Below, in pieces: positions 3,108-33,568 of a stretch of 35,676 nt of DNA. Source of the DNA: a virus; the IMG/VR virus record IMGVR_UViG_3300035670_000727, positions 1 to 35,676 of that record; one strand, 5' to 3'. The notes below the pieces were generated by a model. It searched no databases. It worked only from the letters and a program-made list of their open reading frames with translations, and had not been told where the DNA came from. Position 1 is the stretch's first letter; every line of letters starts with the position of its first letter. The translations under genes were made by a program, and so were the position numbers.

Positions 3108-4100
3108 TTATATCATACTGTCAAACAAATCCGCAATGGTTCTGCTGCCGGAATACAACACTTTTTTAGTTTTTTCTGCAAGTGCCTGTGCTTCTGGCGT
3201 CGTTGCTTTGTCAAATTTGCTAGATCCTATGACTTTATCAATTTTGTTTAAATATACATTCTTTATGGTACTTATCATCTCGTCAGCACTTGAGTAACTT
3301 AATCCAGTTACGCCCAACTTATCATTTAGTGCTAGCGTTTTTGCAACACCCACGATAGATCCAACCAGTTGATTGAGTGTAACTTCTTCGCCCATGCCAG
3401 GATATTGCTTAAGTAATGCATCAATCTTTTTGCAACCAAAAAATGCAACTAGATCTATTGCCCAACGATCTTTGTTTGTAGTTACCGTAACAGTTTCTAC
3501 GTTTTTTTGTTTTGAGAATGGCACTACTTTACCATCTGCTGTTTTTAATTGAATACCCAAATCACTGATACTTATGTTAAACGCCTCAGCAAGTGCTGAG
3601 TATAAACTGGCACTTAACACACCCTTGACACCTTCAGGCGGTGCAAGTACTGAACTCCATGACACCAAATCACTGAACAAACTTACTAGATCGACTTGAA
3701 CGTAATTATCTGCATCTATGTTGATGATGATGTTTTTGCCATTCTCAGTCTCAAAAGCGCCAGTGGCGTCGCCATACTGCTTTATCAAATCATAGTAAAA
3801 TTTGCGATTTTCGTTAGTTGACTTATCTGATAATTTTGGTATGATAAACTGTATATCTATATCGCCGTACTGTTTATCTGGCTGAGTTTGTAGATGCTTT
3901 TGATAATATGTACCACTACCTACTGGCTTACCAAATTCGATAGGCATAATGTCTTTTGACTCTAGCCATTGATTTAATTGTGGCTGTATTGAACTGCTTA
4001 AGTATTTTACAACCCGTTGTAGTAATGCGGGCGTAAGAACTGTATTTTGTGTTTTTGTGCTAGCCCAGCCACCTTCAAGAATTATTTCGTTTATTTTCAT
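3108..4100 (-). CDS. DNA polymerase beta superfamily nucleotidyltransferase-like protein
   Basis: 330 residues. GKPVGSGTYYQK (58-68) followed by YGDIDIQ (D80, D82) and VQVDLVS (D137) gives the hG[GS]...DhD...D catalytic signature of the Pol-beta nucleotidyltransferase fold. Substrate unknown: nucleotide addition to RNA, protein or small molecule are all possible. The N-terminus MKINEIILE|GGWAS fits the T4 prohead protease rule ([LI]-x-E, cut after E9) and resembles N-termini of homologues I recall from cyanophages (EILNE|GGWAS), so it may be a capsid-packaged protein. It lies 8 bp downstream of the Agt-like glycosyltransferase and is probably co-transcribed. A second, different nucleotidyltransferase is at 26179-26979. 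Confidence 0.75.
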   Translation of the reverse strand: MKINEIILEGGWASTKTQNTVLTPALLQRVVKYLSSSIQPQLNQWLESKDIMPIEFGKPVGSGTYYQKHLQTQPDKQYGDIDIQFIIPKLSDKSTNENRKFYYDLIKQYGDATGAFETENGKNIIINIDADNYVQVDLVSLFSDLVSWSSVLAPPEGVKGVLSASLYSALAEAFNISISDLGIQLKTADGKVVPFSKQKNVETVTVTTNKDRWAIDLVAFFGCKKIDALLKQYPGMGEEVTLNQLVGSIVGVAKTLALNDKLGVTGLSYSSADEMISTIKNVYLNKIDKVIGSSKFDKATTPEAQALAEKTKKVLYSGSRTIADLFDSMI

Positions 4101-4108
4101 TAATATAT

Positions 4109-5107
4109 TTAGTGTATACTAATTAAATTCTTCTTGAATATATTCCATGCTGTTTCCCATGACCATCGCTTACTACTTTGGTAAACTTTCTTTCTATCTA
4201 ATTTTAAACAGCAAGAGATTGCGTAGTTCAAATCATAGGACAAGTAGCCATCAACTTGTGACAGTATAACATCTTTGGGACCAGTAACTGGATATGCTGC
4301 TACTGGAGTACCGCACGCCAGGGATTCTATCATCACTATGCCAAAAGTGTCCCATGTACTAGGAAAAACAAAAACATCTGCCATTTGGTAATAACTTGCT
4401 AATTCTTTACCTGTCTTAAATCCTGTGAACTCTACGTCTTTATATTTTTCTTCTAGGTGTTTTCTGTATGGGCCATCACCTACTAATATCTTTCTAGAAT
4501 TTGGATAATCTAAACTACAAAAAGCATCTAGATTTTTTTCTTTACTAAGTCTACTTACACACAGTAATACAATTTTTTCATCTCTTTTGATTTCTATTGA
4601 TTTAAATATATCACGATCTACGCCTCTAGTCCAAGGTATTATGTCTGTTTTTAGACCATGATCAATTAGTTCATTGCACATCGAGATAGTAGTTGTTAGA
4701 ACTTTACCACTATGTTTGTGAAACCATCTAATGTATTTCCATGACAGAAATTCTGGTATATGTAAAAGTTTCTTCAGTGCTTCTGGTAATTTGGTATGAT
4801 AACTGGTATTATATCTTATATTTTTACTATCTAAGTAAAGTCTGGCTGCTAGACCAACGGGTCCTTCTGTTGCGATATGAATATAATCTGGAGAAATACG
4901 TCCAATTTTTTCTGCTATACCAATTGGAATACTTAATTTTATTTCAGAATATCCCGGCATAGAAAAATGTTTGAAACTAGTGGGATCCAGAAAAATTATT
5001 TCATATCCTTCTAGAACAGCACATTTCGCCAAATTTTTATATGTTGTTACTACGCCATTTATTTGATCTGGTAGATTATCAGTAATAATTAATATTTTTT
5101 TATGCAT
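4109..5107 (-). CDS. agt: GT4-family glycosyltransferase, Agt-like (diacylglycerol glycosyltransferase candidate)
   Basis: 332 residues, GT-B fold. The N-terminal acceptor domain has NGVVTT (17-22), YIHIATEGP (75-83) and SYHT (102-105). The C-terminal donor domain has SRLSKEKN (185-192), GDGP (210-213), FTGF, and the donor-site signature DTFGIVMIE (253-261) followed by SLACGTPVAAYPVTGP. This is the pattern of GT4 proteins such as bacterial Agt, which moves glucose or glucuronate from UDP-sugar to diacylglycerol during phosphate starvation; the related MgtA mannosyltransferases are the main alternative. Pairing with the PlcP-like gene upstream (126-bp gap) mirrors the bacterial plcP-agt arrangement. 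A sigma70-like promoter is predicted at 5145-5173. Family sure; exact substrate inferred. Confidence 0.82.
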   Translation of the reverse strand: MHKKILIITDNLPDQINGVVTTYKNLAKCAVLEGYEIIFLDPTSFKHFSMPGYSEIKLSIPIGIAEKIGRISPDYIHIATEGPVGLAARLYLDSKNIRYNTSYHTKLPEALKKLLHIPEFLSWKYIRWFHKHSGKVLTTTISMCNELIDHGLKTDIIPWTRGVDRDIFKSIEIKRDEKIVLLCVSRLSKEKNLDAFCSLDYPNSRKILVGDGPYRKHLEEKYKDVEFTGFKTGKELASYYQMADVFVFPSTWDTFGIVMIESLACGTPVAAYPVTGPKDVILSQVDGYLSYDLNYAISCCLKLDRKKVYQSSKRWSWETAWNIFKKNLISIH

Positions 5108-5233: not shown

Positions 5234-6013
5234 TTAATTGCTAGTAGTAATAGAATCCACATGATCTTCAGTCACCCAAGTTATAATAGACCATTTCCCA
5301 TCCCAGTCCTCCACTAGCGCAGTACAACTTTCTACCCAATCTCCAGTATTCATATAGATGGTATTATCTATGGTTTTTATTTCTGCCTTGTGAATATGCC
5401 CACATATTACACCATCATATCCACGTTTTTTACAATATGTGGCAAGATTGCTTTCAAATTGAAACATAAAATCAACAGCACGTTTTACTTTGGATTTTAG
5501 GTATTTACTTAGACTCCAGTAACCAAATCCCAGTTTATGTCTTATCCAATTAAATTTAGAGTTCAGTCTAAGAACTATATCATATGCACGATCACCTAAA
5601 AAACTGATCCATGGCGCTAATCTAGTTATACCATCAAATAGATCACCATGTACTATTAAATAATGTTTGCCATCTATGCCTATATGTTCACATTGATTTT
5701 TTATTTCTATCATACCAAAACTGAATTTGTATGATAAAAATGGTCTAATAAATTCATCATGATTGCCTGCAATATAAACTACACGGGTGCCACGCTTTGC
5801 GTGGCCTAATATGCTACGAATAACATTTGTATGACTTTGTTTCCAACGAAGTTTATTTCTTTGAATTTTCCATCCGTCAATTATATCTCCTACTAGATAC
5901 AGTTGTTCACATGTATTATTTTTCAAGAAATTAACTAGGTGATCCGCCTTGCAATCTTTTGTTCCTAAATGAACATCACTAATTGCTATGGTTCGGTAAG
6001 TCTTTTTATGCAT
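5234..6013 (-). CDS. plcP: PlcP-like metallophosphoesterase (phospholipase C-type, lipid remodelling)
   Basis: 259 residues, a complete calcineurin-like phosphoesterase: SDVHLG (12-17, D13/H15), VGDIIDGW (41-48, D43), GNHDE (83-87), HGD (122-124), GHIH (205-208), then YMNTGDWVESCTALVE (220-235). The last block, together with GYWSLSKYLKSKVKRAV, is as I recall characteristic of PlcP, the Pho-controlled enzyme that cleaves phospholipid head groups to diacylglycerol, rather than of LpxH, its relative in lipid A synthesis. It begins just after the pstS terminator and precedes the Agt-like glycosyltransferase, the same order of functions as in bacterial plcP-agt. ATG 6013 has AAAGG upstream. Read-through from the pstS promoter is possible. 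Activity on lipids is inferred. Confidence 0.83.
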   Translation of the reverse strand: MHKKTYRTIAISDVHLGTKDCKADHLVNFLKNNTCEQLYLVGDIIDGWKIQRNKLRWKQSHTNVIRSILGHAKRGTRVVYIAGNHDEFIRPFLSYKFSFGMIEIKNQCEHIGIDGKHYLIVHGDLFDGITRLAPWISFLGDRAYDIVLRLNSKFNWIRHKLGFGYWSLSKYLKSKVKRAVDFMFQFESNLATYCKKRGYDGVICGHIHKAEIKTIDNTIYMNTGDWVESCTALVEDWDGKWSIITWVTEDHVDSITTSN

Positions 6014-6030: not shown

Positions 6031-6057
6031 TGAAAATAGGACCTTTCGGTCCTATTT
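6031..6057 (-). terminator. rho-independent terminator after pstS
   Basis: Perfect 10-bp stem AAATAGGACC (6034-6043) / GGTCCTATTT (6048-6057) with a 4-base loop, GAAA on the minus strand, then TTTTCATTT. It lies between pstS and plcP, so it would limit plcP expression from the pstS promoter unless it is read through. Confidence 0.75.
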
Positions 6058-6093
6058 GCTGGTTACGAATTCCAGCACCTCTCAATCATTGAG
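6058..6093 (-). other. two further stem-loops between pstS stop and its terminator
   Basis: GCTGG (6058-6062) pairs with CCAGC (6072-6076) across 9 bases, and CTCAA (6081-6085) pairs with TTGAG (6089-6093). With the terminator stem they make three consecutive hairpins in about 60 bp of pstS 3' untranslated region. It lacks tRNA arms of the right size. Possibly an RNA-stabilising or attenuation structure. Confidence 0.45.
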
Positions 6094-6099
6094 GCCGAT

Positions 6100-7113
6100 T
6101 TACTTAGTATTGATCTGTGTCCATACACGTTGACGAATTTGATTAGTCAATGTGTCTGGTAGTGGAACATAATCTAATTCTAACGCAAGAGTTTTGCCAT
6201 TCTTGAATGCCCAATCAAAGAACTTGATTACATCAGCACTTTGTTCTTTGTCTTTGGGATTCTTGTACATGATGATAAAACTTGCACTAGATACTGGCCA
6301 TGCATTTGGATTTGCTTGATCAACAATACTTAGTCCCATGCCAGGTACACTGAACCAGTTTGCGCCATCTGCCGCTGAGGCAAATGTCTTGTCATCTGGG
6401 CTTACATAGTTTCCTGCTTTGTTTTGCAGTTGCATGAATGTCAGACCATTCTTCTTAACATATGCATATTCTACGTAGCCAATACTACCCTTGATGCGTG
6501 TGACGTTTGCAGCAACCCCTTCATTGCCTTTTCCACCAACACTACTTGCTGCTGGCCATTTTACTGCTGCACCACGACCTACACGTTGTGCCCATTCTGG
6601 ACTAACTACTGTCAGATAATCTGTCCAGTTGAATGTAGTACCACTGCCATCAGCACGATGCACTACTGTGATGTTTAGATTAGGCAGATTCTTACCTGGA
6701 TTTAGAGCAACTAATTTTGGATCATTCCATTTGACGATATTGCCAAGAAAGACTTCAGCGAGAACTGCACCAGTGATGCGTAGTTCACCTGGCTTAAATC
6801 CCTCTAGATTTACGATAGGCACAGTTCCACCGATGATTGCTGGAAACTGTACTTGTTCACGCTTGTCTAAATCTTCACCTTTAACAGGTGCATCACTTGC
6901 GCCAAACGCAACTGTGCCAGCATTGATCTGACGAATACCACCACTACTACCGATACTTTGATAGTTTAGTCCTACGCCAGTTTCTTTCTTATAGGCTTCT
7001 GCCCACTTGGCATATACTGGATAAGGGAATGTAGCGCCTGCTCCTGTGATATCAGCGGCGTATACCATGGTAGCAGTAAATGCTGTAGCGATAATTGAAA
7101 CTAATTTTTTCAC
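6100..7113 (-). CDS. pstS: periplasmic phosphate-binding protein PstS
   Basis: 337 residues, normal length. Signal peptide 1-19 (cleavage after VYA). The mature protein starts with DITGAGATFPYPVYAKW and carries the phosphate-site segments GAGATF (T28), SIGSSGG, GASDAP and RADGSGTTF, then the conserved GNEGVA, GSIGYVEYAY, KFFDWAFKNG and LDYVPLPD. It is the substrate-binding part of the high-affinity Pst phosphate transporter; no pstCAB is present here, so it must work with the host transporter. Sequence style is beta/gamma-proteobacterial. Start is GTG 7113, chosen for the complete signal peptide and the AAGGAGAT ribosome site. A Pho box lies 50 bp upstream, and a terminator follows. Phage pstS is known from cyanophages. 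Confidence 0.96.
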   Translation of the reverse strand: MKKLVSIIATAFTATMVYAADITGAGATFPYPVYAKWAEAYKKETGVGLNYQSIGSSGGIRQINAGTVAFGASDAPVKGEDLDKREQVQFPAIIGGTVPIVNLEGFKPGELRITGAVLAEVFLGNIVKWNDPKLVALNPGKNLPNLNITVVHRADGSGTTFNWTDYLTVVSPEWAQRVGRGAAVKWPAASSVGGKGNEGVAANVTRIKGSIGYVEYAYVKKNGLTFMQLQNKAGNYVSPDDKTFASAADGANWFSVPGMGLSIVDQANPNAWPVSSASFIIMYKNPKDKEQSADVIKFFDWAFKNGKTLALELDYVPLPDTLTNQIRQRVWTQINTK

Positions 7114-7162
7114 TGTGTTAATCTCCTTGTTGTGTTAACATATGGTATTTAAACATAAAAGT

Positions 7163-7180
7163 GTGACAATCCTGTGACAA
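7163..7180 (-). promoter_or_regulatory. Pho box (PhoB operator) in front of pstS
   Basis: Minus strand TTGTCAC-AGGA-TTGTCAC: two identical 7-mers separated by 4 bp, an 11-bp period, matching the proteobacterial PhoB box (CTGTCAT N4 CTGTCAT). It ends 50 bp before the pstS GTG and directly abuts the stop codon of the upstream gene. About 10 bp downstream is TTTAAATA, usable as a host -10 or as a near-match to the T4 late box. It suggests direct control of the phage gene by host PhoB when phosphate is scarce. Confidence 0.85.
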
Positions 7181-7489
7181 TTATGTATTTTCTGAAGAAA
7201 TTCTAGCCAAAATTGTACTATAAAACGTATCCAACTCACCACCAAACTTGCCAGTAAGGTGTCCAATAGCATCTACGCAGAATTTGTAATTTTTGTTATA
7301 GTATTCTTGAATGAATTTCCTATGTAGTTCTTTATAGTTTTCAAGATTCAATAGATCTGGCACTGGTACATTGTTAACTACACAAAATGTTTTAATTGGA
7401 CCATTATCGGTTGTAAAGGTCTCAAGTTCCAGTACGGTATAGTTTTCTTTTAGTTTTTCTGCTGCTGTTTCGCCGATGATAATGTTCAT
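7181..7489 (-). CDS. conserved phage hypothetical protein
   Basis: 102 residues, soluble, no recognised domain. It has a Cys in each half (KTFCVV and YKFCVDAIG) and a mixed alpha/beta pattern. Its ATG overlaps the stop of the exonuclease gene by four bases (7486-7489), indicating co-translation with it. Its own stop codon is immediately followed by the pstS Pho box. No function can be assigned. Confidence 0.65.
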   Translation of the reverse strand: MNIIIGETAAEKLKENYTVLELETFTTDNGPIKTFCVVNNVPVPDLLNLENYKELHRKFIQEYYNKNYKFCVDAIGHLTGKFGGELDTFYSTILARISSENT

Positions 7490-8022: not shown

Positions 8023-8337
8023 TTAATCTGCCATTTCTAGTTTTACGATTAATGGGAAACCACGATTTCTTGCTAGCAGAGTTACTTCATACCCTTTTTG
8101 TTCAGCCATTTCGTACGGCAGTGTAGCAACTACTGCTGAATTTTCATCATTGATTTTTTTTGCCATAGTTTCTGCCTCTAATGAAGCATAGCCTAGTATT
8201 ACTACCAGTGTTTCTACTACGAATTCAAAGGTAGTAACATCATCATTTAGATATATGACATTGAATTTTGATGGTTCAGCAATATCAGATTTTGTTTTAT
8301 TTTTTAAAATAGGTTTTGCTTCTATAGTATCAACCAT
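8023..8337 (-). CDS. clpS: ClpS-like N-degron adaptor
   Basis: 104 residues. After a 22-residue tail, FNVIYLNDDVTTFEFVVETL (25-44), SAVVATLPYEMAEQKGYEVTLLARNRGFPLIVKLE (67-101) aligns over the full ClpS fold, which delivers proteins with N-degron residues to the ClpAP protease. The NDD triad (31-33) is kept, but the gatekeeper Met40 of E. coli ClpS is Phe37 here and the His66 that binds the alpha-amino group is Asn63. The adaptor may therefore bind other substrates or act as a decoy. It is just upstream of the exonuclease gene and downstream of hsp20, separated from it by a terminator. ATG 8337 has AATAATCTT upstream, a weak ribosome site. Confidence 0.85.
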   Translation of the reverse strand: MVDTIEAKPILKNKTKSDIAEPSKFNVIYLNDDVTTFEFVVETLVVILGYASLEAETMAKKINDENSAVVATLPYEMAEQKGYEVTLLARNRGFPLIVKLEMAD

Positions 8338-8393: not shown

Positions 8394-8837
8394 TTACTTA
8401 GTAAAAGTAATGGCGATTTTCTTAGGACGTTGTTCTTCTGGAATAATTAGTTCCAAGTCAATGCTGAGAATGCCATTCTTTACAGTAGCCAATTTTACTT
8501 CAACATTGTCTGCCAATGTGAAATTTCTGGTGAAACTTCTAGTGCTGATACCCTTGTGGATATAGCCAGTAGAGTCAGTTTTGGTTCTCTTTTCTCCACT
8601 GATCGTTAGAACACGATCAGTTAGTTCTACATCTAGTTCACTTTCTTCAAATCCAGCCACTGCAACTTCAACAGTATAATGTGAATCATCGTGTTGAATT
8701 ACATTGTATGGTGGATAGTTCTCACTGCCACGAACGTTTGCGAATGTGCGATTCAAATCATGAATCATACGTTCAAAGCCAATTGCATGGCGTGATAGTG
8801 AAGGCAAATCTAGTGTATTAATTCCATATTGTGTCAT
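8394..8837 (-). CDS. hsp20: small heat-shock protein Hsp20/IbpA family
   Basis: 147 residues. The alpha-crystallin domain runs from about 43 to 135, with YPPYNVIQHDDSHYTVEVAVAGF, LDVELTDRVLTISGEKR, the GYIHKGISTRSFTRNFTL block and the conserved NGILSIDLE. An ATP-independent holdase that keeps unfolded proteins soluble. Hsp20 genes are frequent in marine T4-like phages; a role in capsid assembly or in buffering host stress has been suggested. It stands alone, with a perfect late-type promoter box 68 bp upstream and a GC-rich terminator, so it is probably strongly expressed late. ATG 8837 follows the ribosome site AAAGGAGAAA. Confidence 0.95.
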   Translation of the reverse strand: MTQYGINTLDLPSLSRHAIGFERMIHDLNRTFANVRGSENYPPYNVIQHDDSHYTVEVAVAGFEESELDVELTDRVLTISGEKRTKTDSTGYIHKGISTRSFTRNFTLADNVEVKLATVKNGILSIDLELIIPEEQRPKKIAITFTK

Positions 8838-20774: not shown

Positions 20775-21302
20775 TTAGAATGAAAGAGTGCTTACTGTGT
20801 ATTGTATATTGGCGTTAAAGCCTGTACTTGTAACCAGATTTGCTGCTATGATAGCGTATGCTCCTGGTTCGCTTGTACCTACCGTTTCGATGTCCCACTT
20901 CATGCCTATATTTGCTGATTCGGTGTATTCCTCGTCATAATAGTAGGTATTATTGGAAAGATTTCTTGCTAGTTTTATCCAACCAACTCTACTATCTTCG
21001 TCTCGTACCGCGGCATATTGAACATAAATTGCTGGTTTATTAGCATCGGCAATCGCATAGCTTAAATTTGCAGTTGAACCATCAGATACTGCTACACTAT
21101 AAACAGTGTAGTTAGGCAAATTACTATATTCGGTCAATATTTCAGTATTACCGATTTCAGGCGCACCTTCGCCTAGTGTGCCATTTCCAATATATAGTTT
21201 TCTTGTATCTACACTCCAGCCAAGTTCAGCAGTAGCCAATTGTGGCAAATCGTTCTGTAGACCATGACGATGTTTGATTTGAGATATTTGTACTATAGCC
21301 AT
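20775..21302 (-). CDS. tail-fibre/tropism-determinant-like structural protein
   Basis: 175 residues. ISQIKHRHGLQNDLPQLATAELGWSVDTRKLYIGNGTLGEGAPEIGNTEILTEYS (6-60) matches the N-terminal module found in phage fibre and hyaluronidase-type proteins (QxRrGxxxxLPxLxxGExGwxxDTxrLyiGNG). The rest is Ser/Thr/Tyr-rich beta structure. Probably part of a fibre, the neck or the baseplate. A late-type box overlaps the stop of the upstream nuclease gene (21321-21328), and AAGGAT serves as ribosome site. Confidence 0.8.
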   Translation of the reverse strand: MAIVQISQIKHRHGLQNDLPQLATAELGWSVDTRKLYIGNGTLGEGAPEIGNTEILTEYSNLPNYTVYSVAVSDGSTANLSYAIADANKPAIYVQYAAVRDEDSRVGWIKLARNLSNNTYYYDEEYTESANIGMKWDIETVGTSEPGAYAIIAANLVTSTGFNANIQYTVSTLSF

Positions 21303-22449: not shown

Positions 22450-23109
22450 TTAGCGACGTTCTCTGCCCATTTCTTCTTCGCCACCTGCTGCTACATCTGA
22501 TGCATCAAATCCAGATGGCTCTTGTGGAGGCATTTCTCCAGCAGCGGGAGGTACAGCACCCATGCCTCCACCTTGCTGTGTCATTGGTTGTTGTTCACCG
22601 GCTAGTACACGGGCTCCACTGTCTAATGCATCACGTGCTGCCTTTAGTGCTTCCATTAATCCTTGTAATGCACTGGTCACAGTTGATTCAAATGAATCAG
22701 CCTCTGCTGTTCCTACCTGATCTCTGATGCTGTCAAGTAGAGGAGGAAGTTCCTCGTTTTGCATTTTACTAGCATCAGTAATCATGTCTTGAACTGTGTC
22801 TACCATATCTTTAGCAGCAAGAACAACTTCCGCTGTTTCCAATTCGCCCTCTAGCAACACTTCTTGACGATTGATCCATTCGTTAAGACTTTCCCTAACT
22901 AGTAACATTTCCATGTACTTTGGATTCTTCTCAGCAGTGTGTGCTCCATAACTACGCTTAAGTGACATTAAACTCTCATTTAATGCAGTACTTAATCTAA
23001 TTGCCTTTTGTAAGGACAACTTGTTATAGTTGATTTCAAACCCAAATCTAGATTCTAGGATCTTGTTAATTTTTTTGGATTTAGAAGTAGATAATTCGTT
23101 AAGATTCAT
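22450..23109 (-). CDS. conserved T4-like structural protein (prohead core/scaffold candidate)
   Basis: 219 residues from MNLNELSTSK. I chose ATG 23109 because it overlaps the upstream stop as ATGA and has GGGAAAAA upstream; the frame stays open to ATG 23124. Conserved blocks: KKINKILESRFGFEINYNKLSLQKA, SYGAHTAEKNPKYMEMLLVRESLNEW and LETAEVVLAAKDMVDTVQDMI, which I recall from marine T4-like phages. Mostly helical, ending in a Gly/Pro/Gln-rich tail (TQQGGGMGAVPPAAGEMPPQEP). The helical core plus disordered tail, and L-x-E sites, suit a scaffold or internal head protein; function not proven. Confidence 0.7.
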   Translation of the reverse strand: MNLNELSTSKSKKINKILESRFGFEINYNKLSLQKAIRLSTALNESLMSLKRSYGAHTAEKNPKYMEMLLVRESLNEWINRQEVLLEGELETAEVVLAAKDMVDTVQDMITDASKMQNEELPPLLDSIRDQVGTAEADSFESTVTSALQGLMEALKAARDALDSGARVLAGEQQPMTQQGGGMGAVPPAAGEMPPQEPSGFDASDVAAGGEEEMGRERR

Positions 23110-23645
23110 TTTAATTTTTCCCAAACTTTCATATATTTAGCATAGGCTATGTTTTTTTCTAATTCTTCCATATTAATTTTGTATCTACATTTAGCCTCAT
23201 GTAGTTTATTGTCAATAATGACTATCTCGTCTGTTTTTTTATTTTTTAATAATCTGGTTTGCAGTAGTTGATAGTATTGAATATCGTCATAGTTCTTGGC
23301 TACTTGTTTATCCTTTTCTAATATGTTAGATGCCATTTTAGAATATCTTAAATGTGTCAGTAAAGTAAATAGCACACTGGCGTATTTGCTATAAAATATG
23401 TGAATCGTTTTTTCTTTATCATATACCTGATACATATTTTTTTGTATAGTCTTGATAAACAGTCCACCTATATAAAGAGTTTTTTCATCAAATTCTAAGC
23501 AAACAGGAAATTCACCAAATTTAAGTTTTTCTAGTTCGTTATACACCCAATTATCTAATTTTTTTACCGTAGTATCTACTATCTTTTTACCTATTTTGTC
23601 TTTTGTAGACGATTCTGTCGTTGTCTTTTGTTCGTTGTAATACAT
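23106..23645 (-). CDS. conserved phage hypothetical protein
   Basis: 179 residues, Lys-rich, without membrane segments. A beta-rich centre (FPVCLEFDEKTLYIGGLFIKTIQKNMYQVYDKEKTIHIFY) is followed by helices (KYASVLFTLLTHLRYSKMASNIL and the C-terminal EELEKNIAYAKYMKVWEKLK). It overlaps the upstream short gene by 59 bases in another frame, unusually long here, and I see no better internal start. Overlaps the next gene by ATGA (23106-23109). Function unknown. Confidence 0.65.
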   Translation of the reverse strand: MYYNEQKTTTESSTKDKIGKKIVDTTVKKLDNWVYNELEKLKFGEFPVCLEFDEKTLYIGGLFIKTIQKNMYQVYDKEKTIHIFYSKYASVLFTLLTHLRYSKMASNILEKDKQVAKNYDDIQYYQLLQTRLLKNKKTDEIVIIDNKLHEAKCRYKINMEELEKNIAYAKYMKVWEKLK

Positions 23646-33145: not shown

Positions 33146-33568
33146 TTATGTCCAGGGTCTGCCTTCTATTAATCCATCAGGATTTGAATTATCCACTACG
33201 GTATTGCCACTGTAATAAGTTGGTAATTCGGCTATGTTGAGAGTAAATCTTGGATTACCACTTGCTTCACGATCTAAGGCTGCTAATGCTAATTTAGCCA
33301 CTTGACGATCTTCTAGAGTTGTTAATCTTGATATTTTATTTGCACTACGCAGTGACACATTGCTTTCTATGCCATAATCTTCAAACGTTGCATCAGTATT
33401 ACTCAACAGTGTACTGCCATAGTATAGGGTATACCAACTGACATTGACATTCGTTGCTGTTTCTATGTTTGCTTTAAGTGTGCCAACCGTGTCGGTAGTT
33501 GCAACTACATAAGTATCATATAGCGCCGTATTCAACAAACTTTGAACTGACAGTGATATAGTTGCCAT
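33146..33568 (-). CDS. virion-region protein with ubiquitin-like beta-grasp N-terminus
   Basis: 140 residues. Residues 2-78 fit a ubiquitin-like fold: a beta hairpin start, VGTLKANIETATNV (helix, cf. VxxLKxxIxxxTGI), WYTLYYGSTLLSNTDATFEDYGIESNVSLRSA (cf. QxLxYxGxxLxxxxTLxDYGIxxxxxLxL). It has no C-terminal GG, so conjugation is unlikely. The C-terminal part (RQVAKLALAALDREASGNP...TYYSGNTVVDNSNPDGLIEGRPW) is a block I recall from marine phage structural proteins. Probably an attachment module in the virion. It overlaps the next upstream gene by one base. Confidence 0.7.
   Translation of the reverse strand: MATISLSVQSLLNTALYDTYVVATTDTVGTLKANIETATNVNVSWYTLYYGSTLLSNTDATFEDYGIESNVSLRSANKISRLTTLEDRQVAKLALAALDREASGNPRFTLNIAELPTYYSGNTVVDNSNPDGLIEGRPWT

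Follow-up and report, generated by a model that had tools for sequence, protein, structure and literature searches.

The stretch of DNA analysed here, called the window below, is a virus record of 35,676 bases that is probably a fragment, and all its features described in this report lie on the minus strand. At its centre of interest is pstS (6100-7113), which starts with GTG and codes for a periplasmic phosphate-binding protein of 337 aa. The identity of this gene is beyond doubt, with matches to PHROG 5385 (E 1e-65) and to NCBIfam NF008171 (386 bits against a cut-off of 339); at the DNA level, comparison of the pstS region with deposited phages gave nothing useful. In front of the gene lie a ribosome-binding site AAGGAG (7123-7128), recognized from the sequence and from the enrichment of AAGGAG before phage genes, and then a TAAATA late-type promoter core (7146-7151, within TTTAAATA at 7146-7153) and a Pho box (7163-7180), both supported by the sequence itself and by relatives. 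The stop codon of a called gene to which no function was assigned (7181-7489) abuts the box on its other side. Following pstS, in this order, are a plcP-like gene (5234-6013), whose 259-aa product is a calcineurin-type metallophosphoesterase predicted from similarity and a phylogenetic tree to be a phospholipase C, and an agt-like gene (4109-5107), whose 332-aa product is a GT4 glycosyltransferase predicted from similarity and the GTcp motifs to be a diacylglycerol glycosyltransferase. A 417-aa protein similar to UDP-glucose dehydrogenase (1377-2630) could be a source of UDP-glucuronate for the glycosyltransferase, and genes of this kind also occur near pstS in the related loci L004, L019, L028, L069, L071, L073 and L077.

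The 3' UTR of pstS (6033-6099) has a fold z of -4.7 and consists of two conserved hairpins followed by a terminator-like hairpin of the form AATAGGACC-GAAA-GGTCCTATTTT (6033-6056). The two hairpins directly past the pstS stop codon (6050-6099) read TAAACCGACCACAA..GAGTGG.GCTGGAACTCGTAACCAGC and are also found in about 20 relatives, with compensatory changes at six pairs and a covariation score of 0.392 against 0.141 after shuffling; they have no credible match in Rfam. Other relatives carry a different element at the same place, which reads as an H-type pseudoknot (ACTCGCC-GGCTGAC-GGCG...GTCAGC).

Several further genes of the window deserve mention in their own right. These include a 140-aa protein with a ubiquitin-like domain (33146-33568; PF00240, E 1e-6, above the cut-off), a 179-aa protein with a weak match to the STING ligand-binding domain (23106-23645; PF15009, E 3e-4, below the cut-off), a protein with an Mtd_N domain, the N-terminal domain of the major tropism determinant (20775-21302), and phage genes for a ClpS adaptor and an HSP20 protein (8023-8337 and 8394-8837), just upstream of an exonuclease gene. 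The 330-aa product of 3108-4100 matched no family, and its segment GSGTYYQ...YGDIDIQF resembles, by eye, a nucleotidyltransferase motif.

The Pho box of the window

Read on the minus strand, the box comprises TTGTCAC (7180-7174), the linker AGGA, and a second TTGTCAC (7169-7163), giving a repeat period of 11 bp. The first-pass annotation of this DNA had described two identical 7-mers 4 bp apart, 50 bp before the pstS GTG and immediately following the upstream gene's stop codon, and each of these statements is exact or nearly so: the repeats are identical, the interval to the GTG (7113) measures 49 nt, and the box starts at the base next to the stop codon TAA (7183-7181). With two 7-bp CTGTCAT-like direct repeats and a 4-bp linker it agrees with the proteobacterial Pho box as defined in the literature (PMC3511308). 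It is the single exact match to the box pattern in the whole window; if 3 mismatches are tolerated, there is no enrichment of the pattern there (5 found versus 5.2 expected).

The likeness to proteobacterial PhoB sites, also claimed at first pass, was borne out by a matrix built from the 50 E. coli PhoB ChIP-seq sites listed in PMC10294691. This matrix gives the box 17.4 bits, more than any other site on either strand of the window; for comparison, the median of the E. coli sites is 14.6 bits, and phoA and pstS reach 19.1 and 21.0. This matrix replaced an earlier one derived from six E. coli promoters, which gave too much weight to the linker and so had ranked other sites of the window higher than the box. 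A score of 17.4 bits was reached somewhere in 9 of 200 random windows generated by a first-order Markov model, and hence the significance of the box is marginal if judged from the one sequence.

Conservation of the box and its spacing from TAAATA

To place the box in a wider context we scanned IMG/VR with the PstS of the window, which retrieved 80 loci with PstS proteins 78-87% identical to it, and dereplicated their pstS upstream regions to 40. A perfect YTGTMAY-N4-YTGTMAY, with 14 of 14 fixed letters, is present in 28 of these 40 regions from related viral contigs, and 13 of the 14 letters are present in a further 5; a convincing box is missing from the remaining 7. In 8,000 shuffles the 14/14 pattern never arose and the 13/14 pattern arose in 0.3%. 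The repeat, whose absence from all close relatives with pstS would have told against the first-pass reading, is thus kept in most of them, while the sequences flanking the conserved boxes differ widely. It is this position and conservation among relatives that set the box beyond chance. Across the 3.3 Mb of 16 large relatives there are 19 strict boxes, a count of sites rather than of independent events because some of the large records are near copies, and 17 of the 19 directly precede pstS or a plcP-like gene. One more lies at the end of a contig whose other end begins inside plcP. A perfect box at L170:1501-1518 (G009:69457) is followed by neither pstS, plcP nor TAAATA, and is probably a product of chance.

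The second conserved element is TAAATA, which in the window (7151-7146) begins 11 nt past the box. Of 57 unique perfect boxes, 49 show the same start, exactly 11 nt after the box, and three others have TAAATA at 21 nt, which adds one helical turn; in the background the hexamer has a density of 0.0004 per position. A clear sigma-70-like -10 hexamer at 10 nt after the box was found solely in L003 (TATAAT) and L010 (TAAAAT), and in both TAAATA comes after it as a separate element. The T4-type late promoter, a TATAAATA-like element placed before late (structural) genes, has TAAATA as its core and is read by gp55; as a sigma-70 -10, NTAAAT/TAAATA is weak, which counts against use of the element by the host polymerase. 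In these phages TAAATA is the top enriched hexamer before genes that lack a box (7-fold over coding sequence), and it stands upstream of the portal, tape-measure-like and head genes in G003, a relative bearing gp23. The relatives are uncultured T4-like phages: homologs of T4 gp23 (E about 1e-98) are encoded by relatives of up to 364 kb, and 7 of 14 large relatives yielded a relative of T4 gp55 (E 1e-5 to 2e-7), the window itself being a fragment. An exonuclease-like ORF follows the best of these gp55 relatives. TAAATA is therefore a general late-type promoter motif, and box and TAAATA together make up a composite Pho-box/late-promoter element, in which the two are separate modules joined at a fixed spacing. 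This fits the first-pass suggestion that a motif downstream of the box could serve late phage transcription.

Other readings of the repeat have to be weighed. That it arose by accident where a phage intergenic region is rich in A and T, as the marginal matrix score in a single window would by itself allow, is refuted by the conservation, since the pattern found in 28 of 40 relatives appears in none of the shuffles and TAAATA is held at 11 nt from it; we regard the probability of this reading as virtually nil. Direct repeats are also bound by other winged-helix regulators, such as KdpE (PMC3264566), and the repeat might be the operator of another OmpR-family protein encoded by the host or by the phage. 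That is very improbable, given that the box fits the PhoB matrix and stands almost only before pstS and plcP, and that a search of 14 large relatives for an OmpR/PhoB-type DNA-binding domain found none, where 10 of 14 control genomes were positive. The latter result implies that the regulator must be one of the host. A more substantial alternative is that the box came with pstS as part of a host promoter and is now an unused relic, with TAAATA and the late sigma factor alone accounting for transcription. TAAATA is a general late-type motif; L034, L074, L075 and L082 have pstS preceded by TAAATA with no box; and in the pstS promoters of Burkholderiales-type genomes a comparable box is separated by 10 nt from a -10-like hexamer, so that the box could be inherited. 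However, an unused box would be expected to decay, and the 28 perfect dereplicated copies have instead kept a fixed spacing amid differing flanks. Moreover the same module also stands in front of plcP, a gene located apart from pstS in some relatives. We accordingly consider a relic to be a decidedly unlikely explanation.

The plcP-like and agt-like genes

The metallophosphoesterase encoded after pstS belongs to the Pfam Metallophos family and has the metal ligands of the calcineurin type (DxH, GDxxD, GNHD, HGD and GHIH); in the alignment the residues D13, H15, D43, N84, H85, D86, H122, H206 and H208 are invariant. In a maximum-likelihood tree the 19 PlcP-like proteins of phages form one clade (support 99/99), which joins the bacterial PlcP-like proteins and is split from LpxH (100/100). 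The protein is 55% identical to a Pseudomonas aeruginosa protein located before a family 1 glycosyltransferase which, to judge from its neighbours rather than a locus tag, is PA3219; the characterised pair PlcP (PA3219) and Agt1 (PA3218), which has a Pho box, is arranged in this way (PMC8528852). Among 80 bacterial loci, mostly alphaproteobacterial, that encode homologues of the metallophosphoesterase, 49 have a GT4 homologue next in line, and this is the order described as type 2 plcP-agt (PMC4796936). The GT4 protein of the window has H104, SRLSKEKN and FPSTWDTFG, which match the dyad and nearly match the motifs of the SAR11 GTcp, namely the His104-Asp256 dyad, GRVAXEKN and FPSXTDTFG (PMC8231724). 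In some of its phage homologues Glu takes the place of the dyad Asp.

Both pstS and plcP are classical phosphate-starvation genes. The agt-like gene follows plcP in the window and in ten relatives. About half of the relatives with plcP have a Pho box of its own in front of it (L012, L018, L020, L025, L032, L033, L036, L037, L040 and L051), including cases where plcP lies apart from pstS yet has the same box-TAAATA module. In the window plcP has no Pho box of its own and is preceded by the terminator-like hairpin, so that control of this copy by PhoB would need read-through.

The metallophosphoesterase and the GT4 protein might alternatively serve the modification of lipid A or of surface sugars rather than the recovery of phosphate. 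Phage genes of this sort are generically annotated as UDP-2,3-diacylglucosamine hydrolase, and the window has other sugar genes, encoding a GT2 glycosyltransferase and the UDP-glucose dehydrogenase. Yet we rejected an identity with LpxH for the metallophosphoesterase, which scores far under the respective cut-offs (50 versus 134 and 40 versus 190 bits) and is set apart from LpxH in the tree; further, the plcP-agt order is that of phosphate-starved bacteria, and plcP has its own Pho box in relatives. On this balance a role in surface modification seems unlikely, if somewhat less so than the relic reading of the box, and we retain the phospholipid-directed function as the preferred prediction.

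Proposed host control and phosphate acquisition

Taken with the composite promoter, the above genes suggest a mechanism that we think is probably correct, in which a host-PhoB operator and a late promoter drive both phosphate import by the phage and the release of phosphate from host phospholipids. The box would be an operator for the PhoB of the host that replaces the -35 region of the composite promoter, the downstream element of which would be the TAAATA late-type promoter of the phage. In a phosphate-starved host, phosphorylated PhoB on both half-sites would recruit RNA polymerase, probably in its sigma-70 form; when the host has ample phosphate, or at late stages of infection, the gp55-like sigma factor could read TAAATA independently of PhoB. 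The PstS so produced is expected to increase phosphate capture through the PstCAB of the host, and in relatives the same promoter would also drive plcP directly. PlcP is predicted to cleave host phospholipids to diacylglycerol, which Agt would convert to a phosphorus-free glycolipid that keeps the membrane intact. Thus, phosphate for phage DNA synthesis may be drawn from two sources, the medium and the membrane of the host. The fixed spacing of 11 nt (or 21 nt) between box and TAAATA raises the more speculative idea, which we consider rather doubtful, that host PhoB itself recruits the gp55-type late polymerase. Because PhoB is known to work via the sigma-70 holoenzyme, this would be a new mode of activator action, and it would mean that a nutrient sensor of the host tunes the late transcription of genes for phosphate import and phospholipid stripping.

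The first-pass annotation had also pointed to a proteobacterial host, with which three results agree: the PstS of the window is 71-78% identical to its nearest relatives, the PstS proteins of Burkholderiales-type genomes; several relatives encode a tmRNA of betaproteobacterial type; and the large relatives have no PhoB-type domain of their own. One of the Burkholderiales-type genomes, G256, has a 16S sequence 96% identical to that of Variovorax and 94% identical to that of Comamonas. An enterobacterial donor of pstS was rejected, with 52% identity to Salmonella PstS versus 71-78% for the Burkholderiales-type proteins. A betaproteobacterial (Burkholderiales) host is therefore likely for the phage group, as judged from these similarities, and is not proven for the window. 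The phage tmRNA, of betaproteobacterial or permuted type and scoring up to 125 bits on the betaproteobacterial model, is encoded upstream of pstS at loci that include L033:1803-2231, L040:2730-3234, L042:3973-4411, L018:1503-1852, L072:3526-3872 and L078:4450-4912; the window has neither tRNA nor tmRNA. Seven genomes carrying PlcP were searched for a PstS of the phage type and gave no match, so the two proteins may have come from different donors.

The closest precedent is provided by cyanophages, in which pstS comes under the host PhoBR, as reported in PMC10976474 and the work it cites for P-SSM2 in Prochlorococcus and S-PM2d in Synechococcus. These are likewise T4-like phages with a host-derived pstS whose transcription is tied to the host PhoR-PhoB, and the same paper cautions that predicted Pho boxes of S-PM2d are not always bound by PhoB. 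They differ from the present phages in several respects: the cyanophage box is PyTTAAPyPyT/A and the one described here is the proteobacterial TGTMAY box; the part of PMC10976474 consulted describes no lock to a late promoter, whereas box and late promoter are locked here; and plcP-agt, present in the window, has not been reported for them. Among the matches listed, cyanophage PstS proteins are about 36-40% identical to that of the window. The PhoB promoters of E. coli phoA and pstS resemble the phage element in having a 7-4-7 direct repeat, which in E. coli replaces the -35 and in the phage would do so, and a downstream element about one helical turn away, but in phoA the -10 starts 10 nt past the box, whereas in the phage TAAATA takes its place at 11 nt, or occasionally at 21 nt. 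A layout like that of phoA, with TAAAGT or a similar hexamer, is seen in the pstS promoters of the nearest bacteria.

As to the downstream genes, bacterial plcP-agt operons (SAR11, Agrobacterium, Pseudomonas aeruginosa PA3219-PA3218 and Methylosinus; PMC4796936, PMC8528852, PMC9239053) have the same gene order, are likewise preceded by Pho boxes and encode proteins that are 47-61% and 36-45% identical to the phage PlcP-like and Agt-like proteins, with catalytic motifs in common. The genes described here differ in being encoded by phages, in forming a single phage clade (99/99) and in standing beside a phage pstS. The isolate Pelagibacter phage Mosig EXVC030M (MT647606) is also T4-like, and next to its gene for a phosphate transporter lies one for a PlcP-like protein (50% identity) that bears the annotation UDP-2,3-diacylglucosamine hydrolase; its gene order, however, is divergent, with no adjoining agt and no TGTMAY box. 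The intergenic region between its divergent pstS and plcP-like genes (L256:5842-5991) contains an imperfect ACTTAAC repeat with 26-nt spacing, possibly a Pho box of the SAR11 type.

In the open literature, as distinct from subscription papers and preprints, which lay outside the search, we found no report of phage plcP-agt and no paper joining plcP with auxiliary metabolic genes; a survey of phosphorus genes in soil phages (PMC10987575) covers pstS, phoD and others, and its main text has neither "lipid" nor "Pho box". The same literature yielded no case of a late-type promoter to which a proteobacterial Pho box is locked, and it showed phosphate genes of phages under host control for cyanophages only, as far as found. 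PhoB control of a phage pstS is already known from cyanophages, and what is new, as far as found, is the lock between a proteobacterial box and a late promoter, together with the phage plcP-agt genes.

If the proposed mechanism is correct, phosphate control by the host extends to a widespread group of large T4-like phages whose hosts are heterotrophs, probably betaproteobacteria, through a promoter design that couples a sensor of the host to the late programme of the phage. With plcP-agt, phages would have an auxiliary gene set of a new kind, by which membrane phospholipid would be mined for phosphate and replaced with glycolipid; this could change the burst size when phosphorus is limiting, as well as the lipids that lysates contain.
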